Assembly (NCBI GenBank): GCA_903918755.1
Contig: CAIXFN010000066.1
Location: forward strand, 1-42,019
Source: an uncultured Pedosphaera sp.
Lineage (GTDB): Bacteria > Verrucomicrobiota > Verrucomicrobiia > Limisphaerales > Pedosphaeraceae
DNA length: 42,019 bases
Direction: 5' to 3'
Below are positions 6,508 through 28,027 of the stretch, in pieces; positions within the stretch are counted from its first letter, which is position 1; each line of letters starts with the position of its first letter. The translations under genes were made by a program, and so were the position numbers. Below the pieces are notes generated by a model. That model saw only the letters and a program-made list of their open reading frames with translations, was not told the origin of the DNA and ran no database searches.

Positions 6508-6783
6508 TCAGGTTGCGGGGGATGCCTCATGGGCGGCTACCGCGGCCGCAATAGCATTCACGTTCGCCAAAATGTCCTTGGCTTTGGCGGGGTCGGGAAT
6601 CTTGAGACCGTAGGTTTTTTCGAGGGCGACCACGATCTGAAGCGCATCGATCGAGTCCAAACCGAGACTTCCGGGTCCGAACAGCGGTTGATCATCCGGA
6701 ATGTCGGCGGGCGCAATTTTCAGCATGAGGTTTTCCACCAGCATACCCTTGATTGCCGCTTTGCGTTCCATTGTTTCGCTCAT
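6508..6783 (-). CDS. Acyl carrier protein of the aryl-polyene-like locus
   Basis: The start at 6783 gives a 91-residue protein, the usual ACP size. The frame is open further upstream, but that part overlaps the ketosynthase gene. The phosphopantetheine site is GLDSIDALQ with Ser44. It is followed by the helix-II/III pattern VVALEKTYGLKIPDP typical of type II ACPs. It lies 47 bp downstream of the chain-length-factor gene on the same strand, so it should be part of the KS-CLF-ACP operon and carry the growing polyketide or polyene chain. The Ala-rich tail is ordinary for the family. Classical aryl polyene loci carry two ACPs, and only this one is seen here. Confidence 0.9.
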   Translation of the reverse strand: MSETMERKAAIKGMLVENLMLKIAPADIPDDQPLFGPGSLGLDSIDALQIVVALEKTYGLKIPDPAKAKDILANVNAIAAAVAAHEASPAT

Positions 6784-6830
6784 CAGATTTGTCGGGGAAG
6801 CTTTGCGCAGAGCATTGCCGGACGCAAGCT

Positions 6831-7901
6831 TCAATTCCCGGTGGTGGAGCTTGCCTGGGGGATTTTTGCGGAAACGAGGGGCGCGGGGCCGAAGCGTGCC
6901 CCAATGGCCTGTTGACTCGACCCCACGACGCTGACATTGGCCGCCACCACGGTGTGATCTGCCAAGGCGCTGATGGCCAACACGCATTGCCACGCGGCGG
7001 CGGCCACGAAAGCTTCGCCTAAAATGGATTTTGGTGCGAGCACGCCGCCGCTCCAATCCGCCCAGGCCGAATTTTCTGCCGTATCGTAAGCGGTTTGCTG
7101 GCGAGTACTCAGGCAAAGAAGTTCCCCTGTGTGACTCGCCGGCAGTTGCGCCCGCATCCGCTGCGCCGCGCGGGCGCGAGGTTGGGATTTTGCCAGCGAA
7201 AAGGCGTCGGTGATGGCCAATAACTCAGCGATGGCTCCGTTGGGATTGCGATCCAGGTATACCGCCCCGGCGCCGCTGCCATGAATGGTCCCGCGACTCA
7301 GGATCTCCATGGCGTCCGGCACCAGCCAATCCAATTCCTCCGCCCCAACCACCACGCAGCCGTCCACCTGATCAGTCGCCAGCCATTGGGTCGCCAGAGC
7401 CAGTCCCTGCAGGAACGTGCCTTCATCCCCCACCAGCGTGTAATTTATGGTTTTGGCCTCCAGGTAGGCGGCCAGGTGGCTTGCCGGGGCATTGAAGACG
7501 GTTTCCGGAAACAGCACCGGACTGGCGGCCGCCGGATTGCGCAGCACTTCCTCGAAAAAGCGGCGGGAGTATCCCACCACTCCGGTCAAAAGGCAGACCA
7601 CGATCCCCAACCGCAGATTGCCTGCTTGGACCCGGGCGGCATCTCCGGCCAAAGCTTCGAGTGCGGCCGCGATTGCGTGTTGGCCCATTTCCCCCGTTCG
7701 GCGCAAGCGCGGATGCGCCAGAAAAGCAGGTGTGGTTGGTGGAGGCGGAACCGCCCGTACCGTCAGGCCCCGCTGCCAGCCCGGCCGGGTCAGGCTGCTG
7801 GTAGGAAGCGGCGTGTTTTGTTGCAGGGCTTGCCGCAGGGCCGCGCAGCCCCAGCCTGCCGGGGAAACGGCTCCGATGCCGCGGATGAAAACCGCGCTCA
7901 C
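6831..7901 (-). CDS. Ketosynthase-like chain length factor (active site lost)
   Basis: The best start is GTG 7901. It overlaps the stop of the upstream ketosynthase in a GTGA, and a GGAGG lies 5 nt before it. The frame is open further upstream but would then overlap the ketosynthase by hundreds of bases. The 356-aa product keeps the thiolase-fold landmarks of beta-ketoacyl synthases (IRGIGAVSPAGWG at the N-terminus, FNAPASHLA, GAEELD). At the nucleophile elbow it reads TLVGDEGTF, with Glu160 where Cys is expected. The HGT motif is absent and the usual K..GH motif reads PKSILGEAF. It should therefore be catalytically dead and pair with the neighbouring ketosynthase as a chain length factor, as ApeC does with ApeO in aryl polyene synthesis. 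The overlap implies translational coupling and roughly equal dosage. Confidence 0.85.
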   Translation of the reverse strand: MSAVFIRGIGAVSPAGWGCAALRQALQQNTPLPTSSLTRPGWQRGLTVRAVPPPPTTPAFLAHPRLRRTGEMGQHAIAAALEALAGDAARVQAGNLRLGIVVCLLTGVVGYSRRFFEEVLRNPAAASPVLFPETVFNAPASHLAAYLEAKTINYTLVGDEGTFLQGLALATQWLATDQVDGCVVVGAEELDWLVPDAMEILSRGTIHGSGAGAVYLDRNPNGAIAELLAITDAFSLAKSQPRARAAQRMRAQLPASHTGELLCLSTRQQTAYDTAENSAWADWSGGVLAPKSILGEAFVAAAAWQCVLAISALADHTVVAANVSVVGSSQQAIGARFGPAPLVSAKIPQASSTTGN

Positions 7902-9142
7902 AGCCACCTCCGGAAGATCAACGAAGCATTCGCACCGCCGAATCCGAACGAATTGGACAGTGCTGCCGCGACCCCGGTTTCGGATTTTTCCGTCACCAAT
8001 TTGAATTGGCAGGCCGGGTCGGGCGTCCGGAGACCGGCCTGAGGCGGCAACCATTGCTCGACCAGGGTCATGAGGCAGATCACCGCCTCGATGGCTCCCG
8101 CCGCGCCGAGGGTATGCCCGGTGTTGGCTTTGGTGGAACTCACCCGCAGTTGCGGGGCCGCAACTCCCGCCCACCGATTGATTGCGGCAGCCTCCGTGGC
8201 GTCGTTTTGCGGGGTGGCAGTTCCGTGGGCATTAATGTAATCAATTTGCTCCGGACGCAGCCCGGCTTGCTGGCATGCCATAGTCATGGCGGCGAGCGCC
8301 GCCTTGCCTTCCGGGTGTGGCTGGGTGAGATGATGAGTATCGGTGGCGGCACCGTAGCCGGCAATTTCACCCAATATCGTGGCTCCCCGGGCCTGGGCTT
8401 CTCCAAGGGTCTCCAAAGTCACCATGGCCGCGCCTTCCCCGAGCAGGACGCCGTCGCGACCCGCATCGAACGGCCGGCAGGCGGTTGGGGAAAGGGCCCG
8501 CAAGGCGTCAAAGCCGGCGAAAGTGAGCAGGGATAACGCGTCGTATCCCCCGGTGAAGGCCCGCGGGGCGCGGCCAGTTCGGACCAATTCGAAGGCGTGG
8601 CCGATGGCGTTGGATCCGGAGGCGCACGCATTGGCGATGATGGTCAAGGGGCCATAGGCACCGAAGGTCTCGCCGAGATCCAAGCCCTGGCGTTGGGCTT
8701 GGTAATGAATAACGCGCGTGGCCTGGTTGCGCCGGTCCGCGGGCGAGTTTACGGCCTGCCGGTAGTAATCCTCTCCCAGCGCCATCTCCCCGCTCGTGGT
8801 TCCCAAAACGATGGGGGTAGTTTCTCCGCCTTGCCAGCCGGATTGAGTCCAGGCTTCGCGAGCGGCAATTTGCAGCATCTGCGCGGCGCGTCCTCGACGC
8901 CGCTCGTTTTTTGCGTGCGGGCCCCCGGAGAAAACTTCGGCTGGCAGGGCGACTTCGCCGGCCAATTGGGCGCGCTGGCGTGAGATGTCGAACAAAGTCA
9001 CCGGGCGGAAGGCGGTCCGGCCGGACCGCAAGCTTTGCGAGTTGACCTGCCACCCACAACCCAGGGCCGTGACAATGCCCGCCCCGGTTACGACCACCCG
9101 GTGGGGCAGGGAATGAGCGGATTTGGGCAAAGGAAATTGCAC
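7898..9142 (-). CDS. Beta-ketoacyl-ACP synthase (FabF-type), aryl-polyene-like
   Basis: The 414-residue protein has the complete condensing-enzyme triad: Cys173 in NACASGSNA, His306 in NAHGTATPQND and His343 in KANTGHTLGAAG. The start (VVVTGAGIVTALG about 15 residues in) and length fit FabF/type II PKS ketosynthases. It would condense malonyl-ACP units on the growing chain as the active half of a KS/CLF pair with the next gene, which it overlaps by 4 bp. It reads away from the small membrane gene starting at 9351, leaving about 200 bp for a divergent promoter. Cluster context points to an aryl polyene pathway rather than housekeeping fatty acid synthesis. Sequence alone cannot settle the product. 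Confidence 0.93.
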   Translation of the reverse strand: MQFPLPKSAHSLPHRVVVTGAGIVTALGCGWQVNSQSLRSGRTAFRPVTLFDISRQRAQLAGEVALPAEVFSGGPHAKNERRRGRAAQMLQIAAREAWTQSGWQGGETTPIVLGTTSGEMALGEDYYRQAVNSPADRRNQATRVIHYQAQRQGLDLGETFGAYGPLTIIANACASGSNAIGHAFELVRTGRAPRAFTGGYDALSLLTFAGFDALRALSPTACRPFDAGRDGVLLGEGAAMVTLETLGEAQARGATILGEIAGYGAATDTHHLTQPHPEGKAALAAMTMACQQAGLRPEQIDYINAHGTATPQNDATEAAAINRWAGVAAPQLRVSSTKANTGHTLGAAGAIEAVICLMTLVEQWLPPQAGLRTPDPACQFKLVTEKSETGVAAALSNSFGFGGANASLIFRRWL

Positions 9143-9350
9143 AGGTGGTTTAGGCGCAGATACCGAATCTGCCGGGGAGTCTTTCGCGTTTATCCACGAG
9201 GGAGCCTTTTAACCGATTTCCGACCATGAAAATAAATCCCTGACCGTCTCGCAGATCGACCGGATTCAACATTGCCTTATTAAGGTTCATCGCGGATTTT
9301 AGTGCAATGCATTTCAACGTGACAGAATGTGCCCGGAGAAGCGAGTCGTC

Positions 9351-9731
9351 ATGAACGCCGACCCGGTCCCAAAATCGACCCTGCCGGACTGGTTGAAGCG
9401 GGGGGTGCGCAAATTCATTACCCTGGCGGTCACGACGTTGCTGTTTGGATATTTTTATGGCTGGGCTTCGCCTTGGGCTTTTCCGCGCACTTCCGTAGCC
9501 GGCTTTGGCCGGGGAGCTTTGCACGGTGCCTTGCTGCCCCTGGCCCTTCCCAGTCTGGTGTTGGGCAAGGACGTGCCGATTTACGCAGAACAAAATCTCG
9601 GCCGCAGCTATAAGATGGGATATATCGTCGGCATCAATCTCTGTGGGTTGGCCTTTTTTGGGCCGCTTTTCTGGAATCCCCGGCGTCCGGTCACGGGACC
9701 TAAAACCACCAACTCCGAAAAATCTCGATAA
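9351..9731 (+). CDS. Small membrane protein inside the polyketide locus
   Basis: The start at ATG 9351 gives 126 aa. GGAG occurs 13 nt upstream, and an earlier in-frame ATG at 9327 is possible. There is a hydrophobic segment at about residues 24-38 (ITLAVTTLLFGYFYG), a GRGALHGALLPLALPSLVLG stretch, and a second membrane segment near the end (IVGINLCGLAFFGPLFW). The middle contains KDVPIYAEQNLGRSYKMGY. It has the look of a conserved membrane protein, but I do not recognise a named family. It is divergent from the ketosynthase and converges with the 244-aa protein gene, overlapping it by 32 bp at the 3' ends. Its link to the pathway is by position only. Confidence 0.7.
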   Translation: MNADPVPKSTLPDWLKRGVRKFITLAVTTLLFGYFYGWASPWAFPRTSVAGFGRGALHGALLPLALPSLVLGKDVPIYAEQNLGRSYKMGYIVGINLCGLAFFGPLFWNPRRPVTGPKTTNSEKSR

Positions 9732-10434
9732 TTTCCAAAGGCCCCCCGGCCCAATAATTATTGGGAGGCAGGGAAAATGTGCCGCGGGCCCGGTCGAACC
9801 GCAGGGTGGTTGGTTGGAGGGGATCATTGGGATCATAAGCCATGAATTCCCATCCCTGCGGTTCCGCGCGGACGGCGAACAAAATCATTCCATGGTTGAT
9901 CGTCAGCGCTGGAAAGCGCACCAGGTGGACCAGGGGGGAATGGCCTTGGGCAATTGCCTCTGCGAGTCCGGTCGCGGTGAGGAATTGATGTTCCCGGGAG
10001 ATGGGAAGCACCATTCGCCAATGGCTCCGCAAAAAATACGATTGCCAAGCCCCTCCGCAGCACGCTTTCAGGACTGATTCCCGGTCCCGGCTGAATTCCC
10101 GCAAGCTGGCAAAGCCCGGGAAGACAATTTGCCGGGCCGGTTCGCAGGCCTGCCGGGGATTGCGCGCCATCGTTTGGCAGATTTGCCGGCGGTAGGTTTC
10201 GTCGTCCGCCGGTGCCAGTGCTGAGTCAAAGCGGGCATGGTAAAGGAACTGGCGGGCGGCGCGCGTCAGGACGAAGCAACGGTGCGCATAGAGTGGACGC
10301 GGTTGGCGCCGGGCGAAGGTCATCGTGCCCCGCGCCGGATCCGGGCGATACTCCCAGAGCAGTTCATTGGCAAACGCGAATGAGTCGCGGGCGAAATCAA
10401 AGCGCCGGGGAGCAAGAAAACGGACGTTGGCCAT
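9700..10434 (-). CDS. Uncharacterised 244-aa protein, possible papain-like fold
   Basis: The likely start is ATG 10434 (MANVRFLAPRRFDF), since longer versions would run through the oppositely oriented ligase gene. The product has no signal peptide or membrane segment. Conserved-looking blocks are GGAWQSYFLRSHWRM, LVHLVRFPALTINHGMILF, YDPNDP and YWAGGPLEIIEIFR. A His in NHG followed about 17 residues later by Asp/Asn in YDPND recalls papain-like/C39 or BtrH-type folds. Candidate nucleophile cysteines lie upstream in KACCGG or RQACEP, and none is certain. If that fold is right, acyl transfer from the ACP or processing of an intermediate is conceivable. This is inference. It is divergent from the ligase, with only 45 bp between the two starts. 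Confidence 0.7.
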   Translation of the reverse strand: MANVRFLAPRRFDFARDSFAFANELLWEYRPDPARGTMTFARRQPRPLYAHRCFVLTRAARQFLYHARFDSALAPADDETYRRQICQTMARNPRQACEPARQIVFPGFASLREFSRDRESVLKACCGGAWQSYFLRSHWRMVLPISREHQFLTATGLAEAIAQGHSPLVHLVRFPALTINHGMILFAVRAEPQGWEFMAYDPNDPLQPTTLRFDRARGTFSLPPNNYWAGGPLEIIEIFRSWWF

Positions 10435-10479
10435 AATTTGACTTGCCGCCCACGTTACGGCTGCGCTAACCAACTGACA
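10435..10479. promoter_or_regulatory. Compact 45-bp divergent start region
   Basis: Only 45 bp separate the ATG of the 244-aa protein (minus) from the ATG of the ligase (plus). Promoters for at least one must lie inside the other coding region. No clear boxes were identified. Confidence 0.4.
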
Positions 10480-11730
10480 ATGCTTTACGATCTTTGGCGG
10501 CAACTGGCTGCCAGCCGGAGCTCCGAACTGGCGTTGCGCGATTGCGCCTCCGGCCGGGAGTGGACCTTTGGCCAGTTGGCGGTGGCCGCCGAGGCCTGGC
10601 CGGCGGATGCCGGCTTGGTCTTTCCAGCCGGAAACTCTCCGGAATTTGTTCTGGCCGTGCTGGCCGCCTGGCGGATCGGTGGGGTCGTGTGTCCGTTGGA
10701 ATCGGATCAAACCGTGCCCGTGGTTCCCCGGCCGGGTGCGGCTTGTTGCCATCTTAAGAGCACCTCCGCCACTGGCGGGGTGGCGCGCTTCGTGGTGTTC
10801 ACCGCGCAGCAACTTGCCGCGGATGCGGCCAACATCGTCACCACAATGGGCTTGCGACCGGACTGGCCGAATCTCGGAGTAATTTCCCTCGCGCACTCCT
10901 ACGGATTTTCCAATTTGGTGCTGCCCCTGCTCCTGCACGGCGTGCCCTTACTCCTGGTTCATTCGCCGCTGCCGGAGCCGCTGCGAAGGGCCGCGGAAGG
11001 GGCAGGAGAGGTGGTGCTTCCGGCGGTTCCTGCCCTGTGGCGGGCCTGGCACACGGCCCGGGCTATTCCGCCTCATGTGCGCCTGGCCATCTCTGCCGGA
11101 GCTGCCTTGCCGCTGCCCTTGGAACAGGAGGTTTTTACCGCGACCGGTCTCAAGTTGCACAATTTTTACGGTTCTTCGGAATGCGGCGGGATCGCCTATG
11201 ACCGGGGGGAGGTTCCACGGGAGGACCCGGCCTTGGCGGGGACTTTGCTGACCGGGGTCACCGCGACGGTTTCTACGGCGGGTAGCCTGGTCGTGACCAG
11301 CTCGGCCGTAGGTGAATCTTATTGGCCCGACCGCCTGCCCGGATTGGGGACGGGCACATTCCTGACTTCTGACTTGGTAGAATTGCGCAAGGACCAAGTA
11401 TTTCTCCGGGGCCGGGTCGGGGACCAAATCAACATCGGTGGGCGTAAACTTTCGCCGGAAACGGTTGAGCAAGCCCTGCTTAACCATCCGCGCGTGCGGG
11501 AGTGTCTGGTGTTTGGTACTGCCAGTGGGCAGGCGGGGCGGGGGGAAGCCATGGTTGCCGTGGTGGTCGGCAATGCGGCGGCCGCGGAATTGCGGGAGTT
11601 TTTACTCAACACCTTGCCCGCCTGGCAGGTGCCCCGGGAATGGCGTTTCGTCAATGCCTTGGCACCAAATCAACGGGGCAAGCTCTCCCGCGCCGAGTGG
11701 CGCCGCCAATTCGAGAGCGGACGCTGGTAG
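10480..11730 (+). CDS. AMP-dependent aryl/acyl ligase (ApeH-like)
   Basis: Starting at ATG 10480 the protein has 416 residues, short for the adenylate-forming family and in the range of stand-alone aryl-CoA/ACP ligases. The usual P-loop motif is degenerate (STSATGGVAR). Later motifs are well kept: NFYGSSECGGI (A5), TSDLVEL (A7), RVGDQINIGGRKLSPETVE (A8) and PNQRGKLSRAE with the catalytic Lys near the C-terminus (A10). It should activate a carboxylic acid with ATP and load it on CoA or ACP. In aryl polyene loci this enzyme activates a 4-hydroxybenzoate or coumarate starter. The exact substrate cannot be read from the sequence. It converges with lolA, leaving 21 bp between the stops. Confidence 0.88.
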   Translation: MLYDLWRQLAASRSSELALRDCASGREWTFGQLAVAAEAWPADAGLVFPAGNSPEFVLAVLAAWRIGGVVCPLESDQTVPVVPRPGAACCHLKSTSATGGVARFVVFTAQQLAADAANIVTTMGLRPDWPNLGVISLAHSYGFSNLVLPLLLHGVPLLLVHSPLPEPLRRAAEGAGEVVLPAVPALWRAWHTARAIPPHVRLAISAGAALPLPLEQEVFTATGLKLHNFYGSSECGGIAYDRGEVPREDPALAGTLLTGVTATVSTAGSLVVTSSAVGESYWPDRLPGLGTGTFLTSDLVELRKDQVFLRGRVGDQINIGGRKLSPETVEQALLNHPRVRECLVFGTASGQAGRGEAMVAVVVGNAAAAELREFLLNTLPAWQVPREWRFVNALAPNQRGKLSRAEWRRQFESGRW

Positions 11731-11751
11731 CCTGGGGAGGGCACCTCGATC

Positions 11752-12474
11752 TTACTTTGCCAGCGGGGTGGTGACCTTGAAATCAGCCGGCGGTTCCCAC
11801 CGGAACAGGTTGGTATCCGGGAGCGGATTCATGACGGCGTTCGTGAATTCACTGCGCATCGAGGAACCATCCATGAACACCAGTTCCGTGCGCGTGAGGG
11901 CGTAATCGTTCGTCGCCAGGCCGAGTCCCAATTCGGGCATCCATTGGCGGGCGAATTTGCTGGTCGGCTCAAGGCGTAGTTGCCATTCGCGATTGGTCGC
12001 CACGAGGGACAAGACCTTGAACTGGGCGGTGAATTCCGTGCGGTTGCGGGGAAAACCCGCGTTCAACAAAGCCATTGCGTCGCGCCATTCCCGGGGGGCG
12101 CCGGAATCCAAAGCATAGTGTTCCGCCCGCTTCAGGCGGGGGTAGATCAAAAACATGTCACCATCCCGGCGCAAGGCGATGGTTTGGGCCGGTACGCCCA
12201 GTTCCCAACGGAAATTGGCCGGGGCCGCAAACCACAACCGTCCTGCCGTCAATAGCGGCTGGGTCAGGGTTTTGAAATGGCGGATCTGCGTGAAGTCCGC
12301 CGACCAGGTTTGGACATTTCTTTGGGCTGAGAACCAGGCGTCCAGCACTGCATTCGTGTCGGTTGCCGCCGCCCGATGCGTTCCCAAGGCAAATCCCACA
12401 ACCAAAGCCCAAGCCGCGAACAGCTTCAAAGCGGCGGCCTTTCGGTTGGCCAGATGGGAACGAAATGAAACCAT
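11752..12474 (-). CDS. lolA: LolA-like outer-membrane lipoprotein carrier
   Basis: This 240-residue protein has a signal peptide ending around HRAAA and a LolA-type pattern: VQTWSADFTQ, TAGRLWFAAPANFRWE, then FLIYP and a Pro-rich end. LolA-family periplasmic chaperones carry lipoproteins or lipids across the periplasm, and dedicated paralogues occur in aryl polyene loci. The ATG at 12474 gives a 49-bp overlap with the upstream exporter gene. A TTG at 12429 would overlap by only four bases (TTGA), is preceded by AAAGG eight bases upstream, and starts directly with a neat signal peptide (MKLFAAWALVVGFALG). That TTG may be the true start. Its place after the MMPL gene suggests service for the polyketide product rather than general lipoprotein sorting. 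Confidence 0.85.
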   Translation of the reverse strand: MVSFRSHLANRKAAALKLFAAWALVVGFALGTHRAAATDTNAVLDAWFSAQRNVQTWSADFTQIRHFKTLTQPLLTAGRLWFAAPANFRWELGVPAQTIALRRDGDMFLIYPRLKRAEHYALDSGAPREWRDAMALLNAGFPRNRTEFTAQFKVLSLVATNREWQLRLEPTSKFARQWMPELGLGLATNDYALTRTELVFMDGSSMRSEFTNAVMNPLPDTNLFRWEPPADFKVTTPLAK

Positions 12475-15400
12475 TGGGCGGGATCCTGCCGGATTGCCGG
12501 TTCAAAGACACGCACAATTTCCTGGGTCAATTGGATCCGGCTGGCCCGATTCCCAATTGCCGCGCGGTCATATTCCATTTCCGGATACACCCGCGCCGAA
12601 TATCCCCCGGCGCGGCGGACGATGACGACCGGCAGGATCGCGCAACCGGAAGCCCGGGCCAGTTCCGCGGCCGCCAGCGAGGCGGCGAAGGGTTGTCCAA
12701 ATAACTCCACCGTGACTCCGGTGGGCGCGGGCGGACGATCCATCAGCAACGCCACCGTGGCTCCGCTCTGGAGTCGCCGGATGATTTCCACGATGGCAAA
12801 AGGATTCTCCCCGATGACCAACGTTTCCACGCCCCAGCGGGCGCGCGACGCCTGGCGGAGGGCGGTCAGCTTTTCGTCCGGTTCCCGTTGCGTGAGTACC
12901 AACAATTGGAAGCCGCGTTCCGTCAAGAAGGCGCCGCCCAGTTCCCAATTGCCCAGATGGGGAGTGACGAGCAGCACGCCTTTGCCGCGGGCTTGCGCGG
13001 TCGTGAAATTTTCCCAGCCATTCCAGTCCACGAACCAACTTTTGCGGGCGATGCCGCTTTCATAGCGCCACAGGTCCGCCAGTTTGAGGGCAAATTCCGT
13101 GACCATCCGCCGGGCCAGGCTGCGCGCCGCCGCCGGATCCTGGCCGACGACCGGCAGCAGATTGGCCATCACCACGCGCCGCCGATGACCCGCGAGGGGC
13201 CAGTACAAGGCCGCTCCGGCCCGGGCGAGGACCGCGCAAACGGAGGGTGGCAAGCAGCGTGCCAGCCACAATCCCAGACGCCAGAATCGCTGGCCGTAGA
13301 ATTGCGAGGGGGACTGGCTGGCGGTCCGATCTCCCCGGGCTACCTGCCACCAGATGGGCAGGGCGAAAACCGAGAGCAGCACGTTGCCCGCTATCCCCAA
13401 CGCGCAGACCCGCCCGAGTCCCGCCATGCCGGCATTGCTCGAGAGCCCGAGGGAGCCGAATCCCGCCACTGCCGTGCCCCCGCAGAGCAGCAGCGCCCGA
13501 CCCACGCTGTGCCGCGCGGCCACCAAATCCCCATGATGACGGCGCAAGGCCAGTTGCATAAAAATGCTGTAATCCACCCCGGTGCCCAGGACCAGCGGTA
13601 AGGCCATCAAATTCAAAACGTTCCACGACCAACCCAGCAACTGCATCCCGGCGAGCAGACCCAGCCCGCTCAGGAGCAAGACCGCCAGGCTCAAGAGGAT
13701 TTCCGTGGGGCGGCGGAAGGCCAGCCCGAGGGACAGCAGGATCAGTCCGGCCATGGGGAGCAGGAGTTTCCAGAGATTGCGGGTGACGGCGTCGAGCACG
13801 GTCACCCCGAGCATTTCCCAACTGGAAAGCCAGACGCCTTCCTTGGGCAGTTCGTCAGTAAGGGTGGCAAATGAGCGTGCATCCGCTGCCGGATAAAGAA
13901 AGGCCGCGGCATAGACCTGGTTCGAGTCGCGGGCCGCGACCTTTTCGAAGATCCAATCGCACAAGCGATTGCTGGGCCAGTACACGCCCGGCTGATTCGC
14001 GGCGCGGCGCCAGGTCGCCATGACCTGGTCCATCAAGCCCAGCGCGTCGGTCGAAAACCCGTTGGTGAGTACGGCGGCCCGCAATTCCGCCTGCTCCGCC
14101 AGCAGGCGCTGGATTGCGGGCCGGTTGGTAGCCTGCTCCAACGGGCGGGGCCAGAGCATCGTCGGGCTGGTGAACCCATTCAGGCGGCCGTCTGTCACCG
14201 CGCGTTGCAGTACCGGTTCGATCAAGTCCAGTTTCTGCGCCACCTCCCCCTCGTCACGGCCGGCGGCCACCAGCCAAAAGGGTTCCCGCTGCTGGCCCAG
14301 GTTGGTCTTCAGCCCCTCGAGTGCCGCATAGGCGGCGCTACCCCGGGGTTCCAGCGCCCGCGTGCTCGAATCCATCCCGGGAACGCCCCGGGAGAGAATG
14401 GCGGCCGCCACAACCACTAACAACACCGTCATGGTCAGGACCAGTTTCGCGTGGAATGGATTCAAACGGCTGCTCACCGGTGCGGCCGCGCCGACCGGGG
14501 CAGTGGGGGGCAACATGACGCGCATCCGGTCGGGAAACAGCGGGGGTAGGAAAGCGAAAATCATGACGAAGGCCGCCAGAGCGACGCCGATGGCCACCAG
14601 CGATCCCAGTTGACCCAGGCCGGGCAACCCTCCGAAGTTGAGCACTGCGAACGCCGCGATCGTGGTGACCGCCGCCCAAAAAATACTGGGAGCGATGGCC
14701 CGGCGGATTTCGGGGATGGACAGTTGGGGTTGGGCCAGGGCTTCCTGGTAATGCACCACGGCGTAATCCACCGCCAGGCCGAGCAGGATGGCCGCAAACC
14801 CCATGCTGATGACGCTGACAGTTCCGAAAATCAAACCGCCCATGGCCAGAGTTGCGAGCAGGATCACCGCCAAGAGAGTGAGCAGCCACAGCATGGGTTT
14901 GATCCGCCGGTGGGCCAGCCAGAACAGGATGGCGATGATCACGGAAGTCCCCACTACGGATAAGGTGATATCCTGGCGCATGCCGGTGCTGATCTCCGCA
15001 ACGAACGCCGGCCGCCCGGTAAAACCGATGGCGCAGTCCATTGGCTCAGCCGCCGTCGGCCGGACGACGGCTTTCACCGCGGCCAGCCAGGCAATGCATT
15101 CCCGGTATCCGGCCAGGTCAACGCTCGCCTGGACGAAGATCACGCGGAAGGTGCCGTCCGCCGAGGCGAACATGGCCGATCCGCGGCCCATTTCCGGCAT
15201 GGCACTGCTTTGAGGCAACTGCGTGAAGCCCAGCGGATCATAGCCCCATTGCGCGATTTCGGTGGGGGAGAGGGTGGTGGCCAATCGTTCCCGGGTGGCA
15301 TTGAGAGTGGCATTCCGATTGGTGGCGGCCAGTTTTTGTTCTAGCTGGCGGAGGATCTCCGCCGGTTGGTTTAACCAGAGGAAGGCGATCAACTCCGGAG

Positions 15401-15707
15401 TCTGCTCGGGATGCTCCAACCACGGCGGCTGCCAATCCGCAGTGGCCACCAGATCGGGGCGGTTGGTGAGGCGATTGGCGATTGTCCGGGCGGCAGTTTC
15501 CGCCGATTCCGGGCTGGCTGACTTGATCGTTATGAGGAGTTCCCGGGCATTGGTGAAATGCCGTTGATAAGTTTTAAGACCGGCGACCGCAGCCACGTTG
15601 CCCGGCAGCAAGTCCAGCGGATCCACGTCGAAACGCAAGCGGACCAGCCCGCCGACGAGGGGGATCAGCAAGAGTAGCCACCAGCGCTTGAACCAACCGG
15701 ACTTCAC
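12426..15707 (-). CDS. MMPL-family exporter fused to LpxL/HtrB-like acyltransferase
   Basis: One uninterrupted 1093-residue frame. Residues 1 to about 785 form an RND/MMPL exporter with a first helix at about 9-21, a periplasmic domain, a helix cluster at about 245-395 and a second cluster at about 645-790 (LVLGTGVDYSIFMQLA). From about 805 to the end it continues as a lysophospholipid acyltransferase of the LpxL/HtrB type, with the HX4E motif HLGNWE (His at about 917) and MDRPPAPTGV. In aryl polyene loci the exporter and acyltransferase are normally separate genes, so the fusion is notable. It would couple acyl transfer to a lipid with export. Its start overlaps the upstream lipoprotein stop by 4 bp (ATGA), and lolA follows. 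A sequencing-induced fusion is unlikely because the frame is clean on both sides. Confidence 0.9.
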   Translation of the reverse strand: MKSGWFKRWWLLLLIPLVGGLVRLRFDVDPLDLLPGNVAAVAGLKTYQRHFTNARELLITIKSASPESAETAARTIANRLTNRPDLVATADWQPPWLEHPEQTPELIAFLWLNQPAEILRQLEQKLAATNRNATLNATRERLATTLSPTEIAQWGYDPLGFTQLPQSSAMPEMGRGSAMFASADGTFRVIFVQASVDLAGYRECIAWLAAVKAVVRPTAAEPMDCAIGFTGRPAFVAEISTGMRQDITLSVVGTSVIIAILFWLAHRRIKPMLWLLTLLAVILLATLAMGGLIFGTVSVISMGFAAILLGLAVDYAVVHYQEALAQPQLSIPEIRRAIAPSIFWAAVTTIAAFAVLNFGGLPGLGQLGSLVAIGVALAAFVMIFAFLPPLFPDRMRVMLPPTAPVGAAAPVSSRLNPFHAKLVLTMTVLLVVVAAAILSRGVPGMDSSTRALEPRGSAAYAALEGLKTNLGQQREPFWLVAAGRDEGEVAQKLDLIEPVLQRAVTDGRLNGFTSPTMLWPRPLEQATNRPAIQRLLAEQAELRAAVLTNGFSTDALGLMDQVMATWRRAANQPGVYWPSNRLCDWIFEKVAARDSNQVYAAAFLYPAADARSFATLTDELPKEGVWLSSWEMLGVTVLDAVTRNLWKLLLPMAGLILLSLGLAFRRPTEILLSLAVLLLSGLGLLAGMQLLGWSWNVLNLMALPLVLGTGVDYSIFMQLALRRHHGDLVAARHSVGRALLLCGGTAVAGFGSLGLSSNAGMAGLGRVCALGIAGNVLLSVFALPIWWQVARGDRTASQSPSQFYGQRFWRLGLWLARCLPPSVCAVLARAGAALYWPLAGHRRRVVMANLLPVVGQDPAAARSLARRMVTEFALKLADLWRYESGIARKSWFVDWNGWENFTTAQARGKGVLLVTPHLGNWELGGAFLTERGFQLLVLTQREPDEKLTALRQASRARWGVETLVIGENPFAIVEIIRRLQSGATVALLMDRPPAPTGVTVELFGQPFAASLAAAELARASGCAILPVVIVRRAGGYSARVYPEMEYDRAAIGNRASRIQLTQEIVRVFEPAIRQDPAQWFHFVPIWPTERPPL

Positions 15708-16177
15708 GGAAAAAAACCGCCTTCCAAAGCTTCGCCGGTCCGCGGATTGAAAATGCGCCAGCGGCCATCCGGAAGGGTTTCAAATTGCCAGGGAGCGGCG
15801 AGGGGAGCCTGCGCCAGGCCAGGCGGCAATTGGAACCACAACCAGCGGCGCGGGGGCGGGCCCGCCCCGGCCCAGGCGTGCTCCCCGGCGCCGAATTCAA
15901 TTTGCCAGCGGTTGCCCGTGGTTTGCGCGGTGACGATGGGGAAGGGGATTTTGGAAAACTGTACCAAAAAATCACCACTCCGGTTCGTGGCCAGGATTAA
16001 TTCTCCGGCGATTTCCGGCCGGTGCTGCGGGGGATGCCACTCCGCCTGACCGCGCAGCAGCGTCCATCCGGGAGCCGTCAAATCAACCGGCGGGGCGGGA
16101 GGCAAAGTGCGGCAACCCGGGCTGAGGACGAGCAGAGCCAAGCCCAGAAGACCCCGCACGCGAAGAGGGATTGCCAT
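15704..16177 (-). CDS. Lipoprotein of the polyketide export module
   Basis: Starting at ATG 16177 the product has 157 aa, with an Arg-containing N-terminus, a hydrophobic stretch (GLLGLALLVLSPGC) and a lipobox cysteine at about residue 23. The rest is Trp/Pro-rich (GWTLLRGQAEW, PPPRRWLWFQLP) and ends in FNPRTGEALEGGFFP. The overall layout fits the LolB-like/DUF3261-type lipoproteins of aryl polyene loci, but I cannot fix the family. It lies 10 bp after the halogenase-like gene stop and overlaps the start of the exporter gene by 4 bp. A role as outer-membrane partner of LolA for the product is inferred. Confidence 0.75.
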   Translation of the reverse strand: MAIPLRVRGLLGLALLVLSPGCRTLPPAPPVDLTAPGWTLLRGQAEWHPPQHRPEIAGELILATNRSGDFLVQFSKIPFPIVTAQTTGNRWQIEFGAGEHAWAGAGPPPRRWLWFQLPPGLAQAPLAAPWQFETLPDGRWRIFNPRTGEALEGGFFP

Positions 16178-16187
16178 GGCGACGGCG

Positions 16188-17504
16188 TCAGGTCTTGTTT
16201 GCCAGAGGCCGGCGGGCTCCGGCCTCGTGGCGCGGGACCGCCCGGAAAGAGAGGCGCGGGACCAACGGCCGCCGAGCCTGCATTTTGACCAGAAAGAAGA
16301 AATAAGCCAGTCGCCACCGCAGGTTCCATCCCCCCTCCAATTGGCCGGCCAGAACAGAAATAATCGCATCCGGCAGTTGCGCGTGATTGCGAGGTTGGAG
16401 GAATAGTTCGATAAAAGGGGTGGTGTAATAATTTTCCACCATTCGCCAATAAAACCGTAAGCCGGCGTGGACCCGCTTTTCAAATTTAGCCAGGGCGCGG
16501 GCGCCATCATTGCGTTGCGCAATCGCCTGATTCACCACTTCCGCCGCCAGTTTGCCCGACCACATGGCCAGATAAACCCCGGCCGAAAAAATCGGGTCCA
16601 TGAACCCTGCGGCATCCCCGATCCGCAAGGTTCTTTGGCTGACCAATTTGCGGTTGGAATAGCTGAAGTCGGTAGTGGTCCGGAAAGGACCGGCCGGGCG
16701 GGCGTCCCGCAAACGTTCCTGCACCGCGGCGCTGCTTTTGGCCCACCGCTGGAACACTTCCTCCGGGGCGACGCCCTCCGCCTGGTATTCCTCCCGGTCT
16801 ATTACCAGGCCCACGCTGGTTTTTTCCGCCGTGACCGGAATGATCCAAAACCACTTGTTTTCCAGCCGCACAATAATGGTGTCGCCATCCGCTTCACCGG
16901 GATCACGGACCACGCCGGTAAAATGATTGAAGACGGCTAATTTTTTGTGGCGGGGATGAATTTCGCGCACGCCTTCCTGGTTGCCCGTAAGATTGGTGCG
17001 GCCGGTGGCATCAATCAGGAAAGAGGCCTTGAAATTGTGGATTGTTCCCGCCGGGTCCCGGGCCGACACGGTGACTCCTTCCAAGTCGGCGGTGGTTTTG
17101 GTCACTGCCCAACCTTCCCGGATATCCGCGCCGCAACTGCGGGCATGCTTTAGCAGAATGTGGTCAAAAGTGGCGCGTTCCACGGAGAAAACACCGGGCT
17201 CATGGCAGAATTTGCCCGCGCCAAAAACGAAACGGGTGGAAGGCTGGCCATGGGTCAGGCAAAACCTAGCCGCCAATTTCCGAGGGAATCCCGCCGCTTC
17301 GATGGCGGGAAGCACGCCAAGTTCGCGGAAAATCGCCTGGTTGTAGGGCAGCAGGGACTCGCCGATGTGAAAGCGGGGGAAGACCTCCTGCTCCAATACC
17401 AGCACCCGCTTTCCGGCCTTGGCGAGAAAAGCCGCGGCGCTGCTACCTCCGGGCCCGCAGCCCGCCACCACGGCATCATAATTGATTTCCATACTCCGGA
17501 ACAT
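16188..17504 (-). CDS. FAD-dependent halogenase-like oxidoreductase
   Basis: From ATG 17504 the protein has 438 aa (ATG 17492 is the other candidate; a TTG start at 17552 would add 16 residues). The FAD-binding GCGPGGSSAA is near the N-terminus, followed by FPRFHIGESLLP. WFWIIP matches the WxWxIP signature of flavin-dependent halogenases. The Lys in AGFPRKLAARF is at the place of the conserved halogenase Lys. The second FAD motif is IGDAAGFMDPIFSAG. These features separate it from plain geranylgeranyl-reductase-type enzymes, though some WxWxIP proteins do not halogenate. As first gene of the exporter operon it could halogenate the aromatic head of the polyene, as proposed for brominated xanthomonadin. 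A free reduced flavin would be needed from elsewhere. Confidence 0.82.
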   Translation of the reverse strand: MFRSMEINYDAVVAGCGPGGSSAAAFLAKAGKRVLVLEQEVFPRFHIGESLLPYNQAIFRELGVLPAIEAAGFPRKLAARFCLTHGQPSTRFVFGAGKFCHEPGVFSVERATFDHILLKHARSCGADIREGWAVTKTTADLEGVTVSARDPAGTIHNFKASFLIDATGRTNLTGNQEGVREIHPRHKKLAVFNHFTGVVRDPGEADGDTIIVRLENKWFWIIPVTAEKTSVGLVIDREEYQAEGVAPEEVFQRWAKSSAAVQERLRDARPAGPFRTTTDFSYSNRKLVSQRTLRIGDAAGFMDPIFSAGVYLAMWSGKLAAEVVNQAIAQRNDGARALAKFEKRVHAGLRFYWRMVENYYTTPFIELFLQPRNHAQLPDAIISVLAGQLEGGWNLRWRLAYFFFLVKMQARRPLVPRLSFRAVPRHEAGARRPLANKT

Positions 17505-17627
17505 GGTGGGCCGGAACCGACTTTCGGGCAAGTCCAAGTTCAAAAAGCGCAACTTGGAACCCGGGGGGAAAGTCCTACTATTTGAGGCCGGACTTACCTG
17601 GCCGGCGCGGGTGCCGGGACGGCGAGT

Positions 17628-19637
17628 TTAATAACTTCCCGGCACATCCACAGGGAGGATTCGGTAGAAAACTCCGGGGGCTGTGTTCATCCCCGGCGGA
17701 TCCACAAACTGAGCGAAGCCCTTCACCACGGTGTTCGTGCAAATGGATTGCCAGGTCAACATGTTGGTGGAGATTTGCAGACAATAATTCATGCCATTCG
17801 TGGCGGGCAGCGAAATGAATCGCGAGGAGTCCAGCAGTTGGTGGATGTCCCGGGGCGAGGTTCCATGAAAAGACGGTTCAAGAATTACGGCGGCGGCCTT
17901 GCGGGGATTGCCGAGAGTGTACGTGGCGGGTGCGTTGCTCGCCGTGACGGGCGGGAGCAGGCCCAATACCACGGTGTCATAGGGTCGGTTAGTCGAATCC
18001 AAATCGTCGATTGGGATGATCGTGATCAGGCCGTAGGTTTTGCCAGCGGGAATCGTCACCGAATCCGGAATCTGCCGGTAATCGACTCCATTGGTGGCTG
18101 TGCCCCCAATCGAGAACGAAACCGTTACCGGGTTGTTCGTTGCCCCCTCCCGGTGGACCAAGAAAGTAGCGGTATTGGTGCCGCTAATGTAATTGGTGGC
18201 CGGTCCTTGCGGATTCGTCCAGGCGGGATAATTGGTGCCTTCAACCGCCACCGGATCAGGGGCGAACAGGGTGATCACCGGTGGGCGGCTCGTCACGACG
18301 CTGATGCTCACGGGCGCGGAAGTCGCAGTCAGACCCGCACTGTCCCGCGCGATTGCCAGCAAAGTGTAGTTGCCGGCCAAAACGTTGCTCCAGCCGAGAG
18401 CGAAGGGGCTTGCCTGGGTCGAATTTGTCAGCATTCCGCCACCCGAATTGGTGGTGAGGCCGATGCTGGAACCATTGGCAAAGAACTCCACTGTGCGGAT
18501 GATGTTGGAGTCCACCGCCACGGCACGGACGGCAAGGTTGGCGGGGGCCAGGAAAGTCTGTTTGGTGAGGGGAGACTGGAGAGCCACTTCGAAGGGGATC
18601 GGTGGGGGCGGGTGATGCACCACCGGGCTAACGGTGAGGGACACCGGGGCCGAGGTCGCAGCATGACCGGCCGAGTCGAGCGCCAAGGCCGTGACGGTAT
18701 ATGTACCGGCCAATACATTGCTCCAATTGAAAAAATAAGCGCTTCCGGGGGTGGGACCGGGCGGCATGCCACTGGTATTTGTGAGCGTGCCAATGAGGTT
18801 GCTATTGGCGAAGAACTGCATTGATTTCACAACATTCGAATCGGTGACCGTGGCGATCAAACCGATATTTGCCGGTTCAATAAAAGTATGACTGGTTCCC
18901 GCAGTCCAGAGTTGCAACGTAAACGGCACGGGTGGCGGGGTGATAATCCCGATGTTCACCACAGCGGAAGTGGCCGTGATGCCGTTGGTATCCGTCGCCA
19001 CGGCCTTCAAAGCGTAGGTTCCCGCCGGGGCATTCGACCAAATTAATTGGTATAACGGGGTTGCGCTGTTGCTGTGGGACAGAGCAGTGCCCAAACTGAC
19101 AGTGTTGGCGAAAAATTCCACTTTGGCGATGGCCCCATGAGCCTCCACGGCCCGGGCAGCCAGGGTTACGTCGGTTGGGGCACGAAAGGTTGCCCCATTC
19201 CCGGGCGCGGAGATTGCCACCTCCGGATGCGGAACGGGATTGGTTACTGTGATACTGATCGGCGCCGAAGTCACCGCTCCGTGACTGTCCTTCGCCACGG
19301 CGGTTAAAACGTAAGCTCCGGCGGCGACGTTGCTCCAACCAATGGAAAATGGATTGCCATAATTCGTGCTGGTCACCAGCAAATTCAATTTGTTGGTCAC
19401 CAAACCGATGCTGTGTCCATTGGCGTAATACTCGAGGGTTTGAATTGGGCGGGAATCCGTCACCCAGGCGTGCAAATAAATACTTGTCCCGGATCCGAAC
19501 ACTTCATGGTCGGCTGGATAATACCAACCCACGGCCAGCGGCGGCATGGATTGTCCCCGCGCCAGACCGAAAGGATGAACGGCGGCGAGCAGCAGAACCG
19601 CAGCGGACAATTGCGCCCGGCCAAAGAAGGTCTTCAT
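17628..19637 (-). CDS. Secreted Ig-like/Calx-beta protein
   Basis: A signal peptide (MKTFFGRAQLSAAVLLLAA, cleavage near ARGQS) is followed by four bacterial Ig-like domains between about residues 30 and 450. Each repeats VEFFAN...G, then WSNV.AG.Y.L.A.A.D, then ATSAPVSI. A Calx-beta module follows at about 460-570 (TATNGVDYRQIPDSVTIPAGK). The last 80 residues read YCLQISTNMLTWQ and FYRILPV, a C-terminal module I associate with Verrucomicrobia extracellular proteins. Total length is 669 aa. It has no enzymatic domain and is probably a surface or matrix protein. It ends 123 bp before the halogenase-like gene start on the same strand. Functional connection to the polyketide locus is not evident. 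Confidence 0.85.
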   Translation of the reverse strand: MKTFFGRAQLSAAVLLLAAVHPFGLARGQSMPPLAVGWYYPADHEVFGSGTSIYLHAWVTDSRPIQTLEYYANGHSIGLVTNKLNLLVTSTNYGNPFSIGWSNVAAGAYVLTAVAKDSHGAVTSAPISITVTNPVPHPEVAISAPGNGATFRAPTDVTLAARAVEAHGAIAKVEFFANTVSLGTALSHSNSATPLYQLIWSNAPAGTYALKAVATDTNGITATSAVVNIGIITPPPVPFTLQLWTAGTSHTFIEPANIGLIATVTDSNVVKSMQFFANSNLIGTLTNTSGMPPGPTPGSAYFFNWSNVLAGTYTVTALALDSAGHAATSAPVSLTVSPVVHHPPPPIPFEVALQSPLTKQTFLAPANLAVRAVAVDSNIIRTVEFFANGSSIGLTTNSGGGMLTNSTQASPFALGWSNVLAGNYTLLAIARDSAGLTATSAPVSISVVTSRPPVITLFAPDPVAVEGTNYPAWTNPQGPATNYISGTNTATFLVHREGATNNPVTVSFSIGGTATNGVDYRQIPDSVTIPAGKTYGLITIIPIDDLDSTNRPYDTVVLGLLPPVTASNAPATYTLGNPRKAAAVILEPSFHGTSPRDIHQLLDSSRFISLPATNGMNYCLQISTNMLTWQSICTNTVVKGFAQFVDPPGMNTAPGVFYRILPVDVPGSY

Positions 19638-23200: not shown

Positions 23201-23355
23201 GGCAGACTGGCGGAGACACTGACCATCGGCATATCCACCCGGGGCATGGGCGCCACCGGCAGCGTGCCGTAAGCAAACACGCCGAGCACAAAAAGTCCGA
23301 TGGCCAGCAACGTGGTGGCCACGGGACGTCGAATGAAAGGCTCGGAGATGCTCAT
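20239..23355 (-). CDS. mdtC: RND multidrug efflux permease, MdtC-like
   Basis: The 1038-residue protein opens with MSISEPFIRRPVATTLLAIG, a typical HAE-1 RND N-terminus. It has the expected twelve-helix plan with two large periplasmic loops, the GFVVDDAIVVIENV motif in the proton-relay region, and a second helix bundle after about residue 850. It should pump hydrophobic compounds, or bile-salt-like and novobiocin-like substrates, out through the periplasm using the proton gradient, together with the adaptor and the companion permease encoded just upstream. It starts 4 bp after the mdtB stop, so it is the last gene of the operon. No TolC-like outer-membrane gene is adjacent. Confidence 0.9.
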   Translation of the reverse strand: MSISEPFIRRPVATTLLAIGLFVLGVFAYGTLPVAPMPRVDMPMVSVSASLPGADPATVASSLAAPLERRLGQIAGVTEMTSVSTPGSCNITLQFDLNRKPDSAARDVQAAINAATADLPINLPGPPTYRKVNPADSPVMILAMTSDTMSAMDIFEYGNNIVGQKLSQVEGVSQALIAGADKSAVRVQLNPAAVAATGMSLEQVRSLMTQVNIDEPKGSFDDAHSSYTITSNDQLMEAQDYERLILTQRKGVPLRLDALGHAILGVENERSGGWFNTQRAVLVIIFKQSGANVIETVDRIKKAMPEVERWLPPAIKFSLVSDRTQTIRASVDDVQFSLALSIALVIMVIFLFLRRFWPTFIASVTVPLALAGTFAFMRLFGYSLDNLSLMALTISVGFVVDDAIVVIENVFRFMEHGDSAMVAGLKGARQIGFTVVSMSLSLVAVFIPLLFMGGLVGRIFHEFAVTLSIAVLVSGVISLTLTPMLCSRFLKSETAYGPPGWIYRTSERGFNLMLTVYELGLKWVLRHQGLMLFVALLTFAATIWLYTIVPKGFLPMQDTGVISGTSEAAQDISFPAMAELQSKMAAIVLDDPDVETLGSFIGSGPGGTTVNNGRMFITLKPHSQRKASAEQIIARLRPKLGKVSGVSLILQPAQDVRVGGRPTKAQFQYALQAADLDDLNQWSAQMLAKLRADPRLRDANTDQQTRGLQSNVVVDRDAAARLGLSPAIIDNTLYDAFGQRQVSTVYKRYNQHHIILEVDPRFRLDPSSLQKIYVASTNGQQVPLASVAKFVTGNSFLSVNHQGQFPAVTLSFNLAPGVSLGEATEIVDKITEELHMPSSVQGSFQGTAQVFQASLSSTPILLAAALITVYVVLGMLYESLIHPLTILSTLPSAGVGALLALMICGADLSLVSFIGIILLMGIVKKNAIMMIDFALDAERHEKLTPEEAIYKACIIRFRPIMMTTMCAMLGAVPLAIGLGTGSELRRPLGIAVVGGLLLSQILTLYTTPVVYLAFENLRIWMGLRRKPVSPPPIPVLQC

Positions 23356-23359
23356 GATC

Positions 23360-26491: not shown

Positions 26492-26500
26492 GGGATGGGC

Positions 26501-27733: not shown

Positions 27734-28027
27734 AATTCCGCATACTGGCAACCGTTGGCTGCGCTATCATTGGAGATACCGGCCAACGAAAATGGTTACA
27801 GACTTTGCGCATTATTCTCCCGGTCAATGTTTCGCGCCGGCAGTGGATAATTCATTGGCAGTATTGGCTACCGACGAACTCAGCGCGAGCATTTTGTCGG
27901 GCTCGAGTCGGCGCGGGCGGAGGGGTGCCGCTCCCATTTCCCCACCGCCCGGGCGGCCGGCACGGATTTCGGGGAGCAGATTCGGCTTGCGAGCGTTCCC
28001 GGGTTTTGGCATGGTTAGGTTCAATTT
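27734..28027. promoter_or_regulatory. Divergent promoter region, mdtA and FAH-family gene
   Basis: About 294 bp separate the two divergent starts. The region is GC-rich in its right half with several small inverted repeats, but I can assign no specific promoter or operator. Confidence 0.35.

Follow-up and report, generated by a model that had tools for sequence, protein, structure and literature searches.

We analysed a stretch of DNA from an uncultured Pedosphaera genome, which is the entire contig C66 (42,019 bases; hereafter the window) of an assembly of 7.19 Mb in 118 contigs (completeness 96.9%, contamination 2.55%). Combining open reading frames (ORFs) with family searches, we find ten genes between positions 6508 and 17552 that make up a type II polyketide synthase (PKS) locus resembling the clusters for aryl polyenes (APEs) (Table 1). 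The gene set that the initial annotation had named at 6508-17504 is present, with limits that agree within a few bases. The MMPL exporter and the acyltransferase, which it had listed as separate genes, are both there but form one protein. Two cluster genes, for a small conserved protein and a papain-like protein, had not been named.

Table 1. Genes of the APE-like locus in the window and the second gene block on contig C22
Feature	Position	Strand	Remarks
Acyl carrier protein (ACP), ApeE-like	6508..6783	-	PF00550
Chain length factor (CLF), degenerate full-length KS-like	6831..7901 (~7901)	-	start overlaps KS stop
Ketosynthase (KS)	7898..9142	-	PF00109/PF02801
Small conserved protein	9327..9731	+	membrane protein by eye only; homologues at the same place in relatives
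Papain-like protein	9700..10434	-	weak papain-fold matches; invariant C53/H181/D201
AMP-dependent acyl ligase, ApeH-like	~10480..11730	+	PF00501 + PF13193; ORF opens at 10438
LolA-like periplasmic carrier, ApeL-like	11752..12474	-	PF03548
MMPL exporter (ApeM-like)/LpxL-type acyltransferase fusion, 1093 aa	12426..15707	-	PF03176 + PF03279 on one chain
Lipoprotein, at the position of ApeN (DUF3261/LolB-like)	15704..~16177	-	lipobox by eye; start approximate
Halogenase-type flavoenzyme (FAD)	16188..17552	-	PF04820; true start perhaps nearer 17490
C22 block, 4.4 kb	C22:9116-13556		ApeP-like and ApeI-like dehydratases facing GT2, FAD oxidoreductase, ACP and ligase, in that order

The KS retains Cys173, His306 and His343, which are invariant across 20 aligned sequences. 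Its partner, the CLF, is full length, and the active-site Cys of KS is replaced in 16 of 16 aligned CLFs, where a GDxGTFLQG-like motif stands (16 of the 20 fetched CLFs were aligned, leaving out L055, which has a stop, L051, L052 and L054). An active-site KS, a degenerate CLF partner and an ACP are therefore encoded together, as in type II PKS systems. Building trees, we find that the KS homologues form one clade (support 100/100) separate from the genome's own FabF, which sits on contig C104, and that the CLF homologues also form one clade (99/99). The approximately unbiased (AU) test rejected a grouping of KS with FabF (p 0.017), and it retained KS with ApeR (p 0.07) and KS with a Streptomyces KS (p 0.08). 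The AU result for KS with ApeO (p 0.002) is not meaningful, as that test omitted the Variovorax KS that groups with ApeO. In the KS-only tree, the window KS lies on ApeO's side of a 99/98 branch. A housekeeping fatty-acid synthase (FAS) locus was ruled out by the separate clades and the AU test, and the grouping with FabF/FabB that the initial annotation had raised as a threat to its proposal was not seen. The sole CLF match in PDB is entry 9s5h, and a literature search gave no relevant paper on it.

We compared the remaining proteins with the APE clusters of E. coli CFT073 and Pseudoalteromonas using family profiles. The ACP profile scored 64.6 bits with the ApeE-type ACP of Pseudoalteromonas, 49.7 with E. 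coli ApeE and 31.4 with AcpP. The ligase profile found the APE ligase of Pseudoalteromonas at E 5e-21, ApeH of E. coli at E 6e-9 and the ligase of the C22 block at E 3e-30. By these matches, the ApeE/ApeH loading pair of APE clusters is represented in the locus. The LolA-like protein matched E. coli ApeL (E 5e-12); its best NCBIfam model is flexirubin LolA2 at 48.6 bits, where the cut-off is 125. The MMPL/acyltransferase fusion matched ApeM (E 2e-19), and 1084 of its residues aligned at 59% in the related locus L042. The lipoprotein gave no family match in Pfam, NCBIfam or the reference-profile comparison; a 43% homologue adjoins the MMPL gene in L045. Thus, a LolA/MMPL/LolB-like export module with an acyltransferase is present, the lipoprotein itself matching no family. 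The LolA/MMPL part probably has an export role because of its homology to ApeL/ApeM and the fusion of pump and acyltransferase.

The nearest solved relatives of the flavoenzyme in PDB are ChlB4 (E 1e-58) and PltA (E 9e-54), and its profile matched the FAD enzyme of the Pseudoalteromonas APE cluster (E 2e-61, 203 bits). The motifs GFPRK, with its Lys, and WFWIIP (WxWxIP) are kept, and similar motifs occur in 12 relatives and in the Pseudoalteromonas enzyme. We take the catalytic Lys and WxWxIP to be flavin-dependent halogenase motifs; closely related flavoenzymes without halogenase activity exist. The aryl-polyene-like character proposed by the initial annotation is thus borne out by the ACP, LolA, MMPL, ligase and flavoenzyme profiles against E. 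coli CFT073 and/or Pseudoalteromonas.

The small protein had no Pfam or NCBIfam match, and the papain-like protein had zero family matches. In an AlphaFold model of the latter (pLDDT 85), C53 stands at a helix start, and C53, H181 and D201, invariant in 18 sequences, are arranged as in papain. The fold matches are weak (best Z 7.7, no Foldseek E below 0.001). We consider this protein a candidate enzyme for release or acyl transfer.

Using the CLF as a query, we checked the distribution of the system over 146 genomes. At E 1e-3, 74 genomes matched; 13 of these had E values worse than 1e-50, which leaves 61 strongly matching genomes, the source genome counted. Each of the six family members from other genera is among these, as is the single genus mate, G001. 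From a named genome collection, 296 relatives were obtained, of which we kept 80. By title, 72 of these 80 are Verrucomicrobiota or a group thereof (Limisphaerales, Pedosphaera, 'Verrucomicrobia subdivision 3' and three odd Akkermansia labels among them), 7 are only 'bacterium' and 1 is Betaproteobacteria. A cluster dehydratase was found in 49 of the 61 CLF-positive genomes and in 7 of the 85 others (Fisher p 8e-20), and a cluster ketoreductase (KR) in 43 and 1, respectively (Fisher p 2e-21); the p values are only a guide, as the genomes are related. Partial or broken KRs fall outside the KR threshold of E 1e-75 (those of G028 = L047 and G081 = L057 at the least), so the count of 18 CLF-positive genomes in 61 without KR is too high. 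The genes are co-conserved in the relatives, and the initial annotation had counted a lack of such conservation against itself. In summary, the system is real and found across the order; it is a variant, APE-like form of type II PKS, and in the source genome it is without its usual processing genes.

Twenty loci of the relatives were fetched first and more afterwards, giving 91 unique CLF loci. The fullest layout, in L042, runs MMPL/acyltransferase, LolA, FabZ-like dehydratase, ligase (reverse), papain-like protein, small protein (reverse), GT2 (reverse), HydE-like radical SAM protein, KS, CLF, KR and ACP. The synteny comparison suggested by the initial annotation thus shows the cluster recurring across the Verrucomicrobiota order, with KR, FabZ-like dehydratase, GT2 and the HydE-like gene inside the relatives' layout. 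The flavoenzyme adjoins the ACP in several family members (L041, L043-L045). Among the 91 loci, KS was counted in 89, ACP in 75, KR in 58, GT2 in 37, the HydE-like gene in 33, the ligase and the small protein in 27 each, the papain-like protein in 24, the MMPL fusion in 17, LolA in 15, the dehydratase in 14 and the flavoenzyme in 13; many of these loci end at contig ends, and the counts are lower bounds. For the 36 loci flanked by 8 kb or more on each side, the numbers were KS 36, ACP 32, KR 25, HydE-like 17, GT2 17, ligase 16, small protein 14, papain-like protein 13, MMPL fusion 10, LolA 9, dehydratase 9 and flavoenzyme 7. From these counts, the export and loading part often does not lie within 10 kb of the KS.

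Two further features of the relatives' loci deserve mention. The HydE/PylB-like radical SAM gene (L042:7623-8717) is near KS in 33 of the 91 loci and missing in the source genome; the best model for its protein is HydE at 179 bits (cut-off 255). Upstream of KS, a group of relatives (L041:6352-7932, L045:8037-8717 and similar) has genes for another halogenase-like flavoenzyme, seen in 15 of 91 loci, and for a conserved protein that matched no family, seen in 22 of 91.

As the initial annotation had stated, no KR, hot-dog dehydratase or second ACP was found among the ORFs and family matches of the 6508-17552 stretch, and queries with the cluster-type KR, dehydratase, GT2 and HydE proteins gave zero matches in the window. 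There is zero N in the contig, so the gene junctions are real sequence and not gaps, and the junction of CLF and ACP is tight (51 bp between). On these grounds, an assembly gap was excluded as the cause of the missing genes. We then searched the whole genome with the KR, HydE-like and dehydratase queries. The best match of the cluster KR, out of 17 matches to short-chain dehydrogenases/reductases (SDRs), was FabG (42%), beside FabF on C104. The cluster dehydratase had best matches of only 32%, to a FabZ-like domain on C17 and a protein on C22, and the HydE-like protein of only 30%, on C35. The cluster-type GT2 is absent from the window, and one GT2 lies on C22. The genus mate G001 retains the dehydratase, GT2 and HydE-like genes and lacks, of the four, only the KR.

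The absence of the KR is recurrent in this order. The ACP lies on the CLF strand in 75 loci; a KR stands between the two genes in 55 of these and is missing from 19, and the remaining locus is odd. By parsimony, a KS tree of 67 loci shows ten changes of KR state, against 13.7 with shuffled labels, and at least three counting well-supported branches alone; this tree holds 15 of the 19 KR-less loci, the rest having been dropped by the length and stop filter. In the four KR-less loci with searchable genomes (G001, G061, G094, G111), no KR was found genome-wide at E 1e-75.

These losses could mean that the locus is a decaying remnant, in which KR, dehydratase, GT2 and HydE-like genes went first, the rest is following and no product is made. 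Four genes usual in relatives are indeed missing from three separate places of the cluster, no cluster-type KR, HydE or dehydratase was found elsewhere in the genome, and the genus mate lacks only the KR among these. A dedicated KR was also needed in two studied systems, according to the parts of PMC3691225 and PMC8041823 available to us. However, the ten remaining frames are open, the KS catalytic residues and the flavoenzyme motifs are kept, the junctions are tight, and 18 other loci keep both CLF and ACP with no KR between them. We therefore regard a remnant as unlikely.

Contig C22 carries a second set of APE-like genes. Its homologues of ApeI and ApeP lie at C22:9116-9993; the ApeI-like protein is above the Pfam cut-off, and ApeP, for which a Pfam search gave no match anywhere, the controls included, was recognised by reading frames and then by profile. 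The C22 ApeP-family profile matched ApeP of E. coli and Pseudoalteromonas (E 2e-6 and 3e-7), and the ApeI-family profile matched ApeI of the same two (E 1e-12 and 8e-10). Within the reference set, both profiles otherwise match only the respective C22 protein. By eye, the C22 ApeI has a GHF-type motif without E-x-x-AQ and ApeP the opposite, whereas the single dehydratase of the relatives has both. These complementary and combined motifs suggest a paired enzyme in the C22-type system and a single one in the window-type system. The initial annotation had proposed that the missing steps may be encoded elsewhere and had suggested a search for FabG-like and ApeI/ApeP-like genes. That search, which bears the proposal out in part, placed FabG on C104 and, on C22, dehydratases of the ApeI/ApeP type with a GT2 and a second ACP and ligase, which may serve this locus; no KR of the cluster type was found in the genome.

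The C22 ligase (at least 60%) and ApeP were found in the same 5 of the 146 genomes. In three of the other four (G120, G024 and G133), both are part of a second APE-like system, whose genes fall into two blocks. In the first block, ligase, ACP, FAD oxidoreductase, GT2 and MMPL genes are interspersed with others, and the second holds ApeI, LolA, KS, an ApeE-like ACP, a second KS, ApeP and an acyltransferase. The ApeE-like ACP is 53-59% to E. coli ApeE, and the second KS is nearest to the ApeO/Variovorax group. The fourth genome, G097, shows only parts of this system on short stretches, and all four lack a strong window-type CLF. Side observations on the second system are a 1310-aa frame with MMPL, PlsC-type acyltransferase and methyltransferase domains (L081:15611-19543) and a 733-aa frame in which a KS and a degenerate KS-like domain are fused (L197:4165-6366).

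We looked for the rest of the second system in the source genome, searching KS genome-wide and the other genes on C22, in the window and on two more pieces. Only three KS domains are present, those of FabF, the window and C11, and the synthase of the second system is thus missing. In trees, the C11 KS pairs with FabB on a long branch, and ApeR forms a separate pair beside them. The C11 KS may be a distant ApeR counterpart. At this place (L007:12809-16197, in G000), the FabB-like KS has as neighbours a protein of 132 aa that by eye is ACP-like and a B12-binding radical SAM gene, homologues of which also occur near some window-type clusters (L049, L054); this C11 locus may belong to the window pathway, to which no link was found. 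We also compared 14 proteins of the G120 second system, the second ACP not among them, with all 112,285 bases of C22. Ligase, ApeI, ApeP, FAD oxidoreductase and GT2 matched (47-67%). The KS-CLF, ApeE-type ACP, ApeO-like KS, acyltransferase, LolA, MMPL, deacetylase, second ligase and an unknown 418-aa protein were not found there. Five of the missing kinds (KS, ACP, acyltransferase, LolA and MMPL) have distant counterparts in the window. Weaker homologues of the C22 ligase (37-44%) adjoin window-type cluster genes in G017, G090 and G102, a hint that C22-type genes can serve a window-type system.

C22 as a contaminant contig was ruled out by tetranucleotide distance. Five 20-kb pieces of C22 scored 1.03-1.18 and two window pieces 1.10-1.26; the range was 0.77-1.33 in a leave-one-out comparison of 20 pieces of this genome and 1.50-4.19 for 11 pieces of nine other genomes. 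Short pieces score higher: 1.95 for the 4.5-kb C22 block, 2.06 for its 9-kb neighbour and 1.49 for the 11-kb window cluster.

Taking these results together, we favour, with moderate confidence, the reading that the window holds the core of an APE-like type II PKS pathway that is characteristic of a single order of Verrucomicrobiota and would make a membrane-bound, probably halogenated polyene lipid. In this pathway, the ligase would activate an aromatic acid and load it on the ACP, and KS/CLF would add malonyl units. Ketoreduction would be done by a KR encoded elsewhere (FabG or another SDR), and dehydration, giving a double bond per unit, by enzymes also encoded elsewhere, either the C22 ApeI/ApeP pair or FabZ. 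The flavoenzyme would halogenate or oxidise the ring, and the papain-like protein may release or transfer the chain. Fused to the MMPL pump, the acyltransferase would attach the chain to a lipid carrier and pass it to the pump, and LolA with the lipoprotein would carry the product to the outer membrane.

Several results weigh against this reading. There is no cluster-type KR in the genome by genome-wide search; FabG of A. baumannii yielded hardly any APE in vitro and cannot replace ApeQ, as far as the accessible part of PMC8041823 goes, and deletion of the KR in Lysobacter turned the cells white in the corresponding part of PMC3691225. Aligning 12 KRs and mapping the site by eye, we find Tyr or Phe in the relatives' KR at the position of the ApeQ-type Leu185, and Phe in FabG. 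Because the KR of this order is not ApeQ-like at the Leu185 site, FabG may, as a guess, replace the cluster KR more easily here. No precursor enzyme was identified, and an aromatic ammonia lyase was not found in the genome, the control being positive in 5 of 14 genomes. The window is without an ApeR-type KS, and none of the genome's three KS domains was shown to be ApeR. The kinship of KS to ApeO is not settled once the CLFs join the tree, and the KS profile scored 313-328 bits with FabF, 304 with the Streptomyces type II KS, 264-271 with ApeR and 220-223 with ApeO. With this position open and the raw scores favouring FabF, we did not file the KS and CLF as ApeO/ApeC. Finally, 11 of the 12 CLF-positive genomes without cluster dehydratase also lack a C22-type ApeP, and any use of the C22 genes is argued from one genome; the chance that the sole two-system genome lacks the dehydratase is ~12/61.

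The last two points concern the source of the dehydratases, on which the favoured polyene reading takes two forms. The halves look complementary, each having most of the genes that the other is short of: the window holds synthase, loading and export genes, and C22 holds ApeI/ApeP, GT2 and an oxidoreductase as well as a second ACP and ligase. The second half-cluster on C22 could thus supply most of the missing processing genes, and a chimera, with one APE pathway built from the halves of two APE-like systems, is a possibility that we hold only tentatively. An equally tentative form, whose odds overlap with those of the polyene reading as a whole, is that the chain is processed by the primary-metabolism enzymes FabZ and FabG, in which case the C22 block would have nothing to do with the window locus. 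The absence of ApeP from 11 of the 12 dehydratase-less genomes means that a genome can lose the dehydratase without having C22 genes, and FabG stands beside FabF on C104 and a FabZ-like domain on C17. However, the C22 block could hardly work alone, as the second system's KS is not among the genome's three and its KS-CLF, ApeE-type ACP, LolA, MMPL and acyltransferase were not found on any part of the 112-kb contig. The cluster dehydratase is moreover kept in 49 of the 61 CLF-positive genomes, suggesting that FabZ is usually insufficient.

Two other products were considered. An unreduced or partly reduced chain might fold into an aromatic or pyrone head and be exported by LolA/MMPL; the lack of a cluster-type KR and dehydratase in the genome fits this, as do the nearly equal KS scores for FabF and the Streptomyces type II KS, which comes from an aromatase-bearing cluster (AU p 0.08). 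However, there is no cyclase/aromatase among the family matches of the scanned window genes, most CLF-bearing relatives have the dehydratase and the KR (49 and 43 of 61), and the families of the ACP, the export proteins and the flavoenzyme match those of APE loci, which makes a non-polyene product quite improbable. We give similarly little credence to a specialised non-aryl fatty-acid or lipid synthase, in which KS/CLF would make an unusual acyl chain for an outer-membrane lipid. By score, the KS is FAS-like, as are the KR and dehydratase of the relatives, and the search of the genome for an ammonia lyase was negative; against this stand the ApeH-like ligase, the ApeE-like ACP and a flavoenzyme of the APE halogenase family with PltA and ChlB4 as solved relatives.

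Outside the locus, the flanks at 17628-19637 (-) and 1-3564 (-) encode large proteins with bacterial Ig (Big_7) repeats and DUF7507 repeats. An RND efflux operon occupies 20239-27751 (-) of the window; family search identified an AcrB-type pump (23360-26491) and an HlyD-type adaptor (26501-27751), and 20239-23355 resembles a second RND pump by eye only.

This order, which our searches met almost only in metagenome-assembled genomes, carries its own version of an APE-like system. It raises the questions of whether a housekeeping FabG can feed an APE synthase and whether the dehydratases of one APE system can serve another. In the accessible text of an Antarctic soil survey (PMC8692599), arylpolyenes are among the verrucomicrobial biosynthetic gene clusters and Pedosphaerales among the most prolific orders; that text, like the corresponding part of the Oceaniferula paper (PMC9865893), gives cluster counts or types only, with no gene-level account of the locus. 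The string 'Verrucomicro-' is absent from the main text of a type II PKS catalogue (PMC10132072). A gene-level account of this cluster was not found in the literature searched, mostly non-subscription papers, which is no proof of novelty.

The locus has likenesses to three kinds of known systems; we take the ape gene letters from the available part of PMC8253772. Like the actinobacterial type II PKS, represented by one Streptomyces plasmid locus, it has a KS with a full-length CLF and a stand-alone ACP; unlike it, no cyclase/aromatase was found in the window and a membrane export module is present. With the xanthomonadin and flexirubin pathways it shares a halogenase-type flavoenzyme, halogenase genes being reported for xanthomonadin clusters in the consulted part of PMC3691225. 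The best model of its LolA is flexirubin LolA2, far below the cut-off, and the relatives' KR matches flexirubin FlxB, also below the cut-off.

With the APE clusters apeA-R of E. coli CFT073 and plasmid p1 of Pseudoalteromonas the locus shares the ApeE-type ACP, the ApeH-type ligase, LolA (ApeL), MMPL (ApeM) with a lipoprotein beside its gene, and the LpxL-type acyltransferase, the FAD enzyme family being shared with Pseudoalteromonas. The clusters of the relatives also share GT2, KR and a hot-dog dehydratase with them, and the GT2 family profile matches APE genes of E. coli CFT073 and/or Pseudoalteromonas. There are also differences. PMC8358021, in its available part, describes ApeC as a half-size CLF and ApeR as a second, FabB-like KS; in our locus the CLF is full length, there is no ApeR, and MMPL and acyltransferase are fused. 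The papain-like protein, the small protein and the relatives' HydE-like gene have no match in the two APE clusters, the relatives' KR is without the ApeQ-type Leu185, and in the relatives a single two-motif FabZ-like dehydratase replaces the ApeI/ApeP pair. Neither ApeO with a half-size ApeC nor ApeQ was found in the window. Thus, of the ApeO/ApeC/ApeE/ApeH locus that the initial annotation had proposed, ApeE and ApeH stand, and the ApeO/ApeC part is not supported, given the full-length CLF, the lack of ApeR and KS scores that place FabF and ApeR above ApeO. Judged by its sequence, the cluster is APE-like, not a standard APE cluster.

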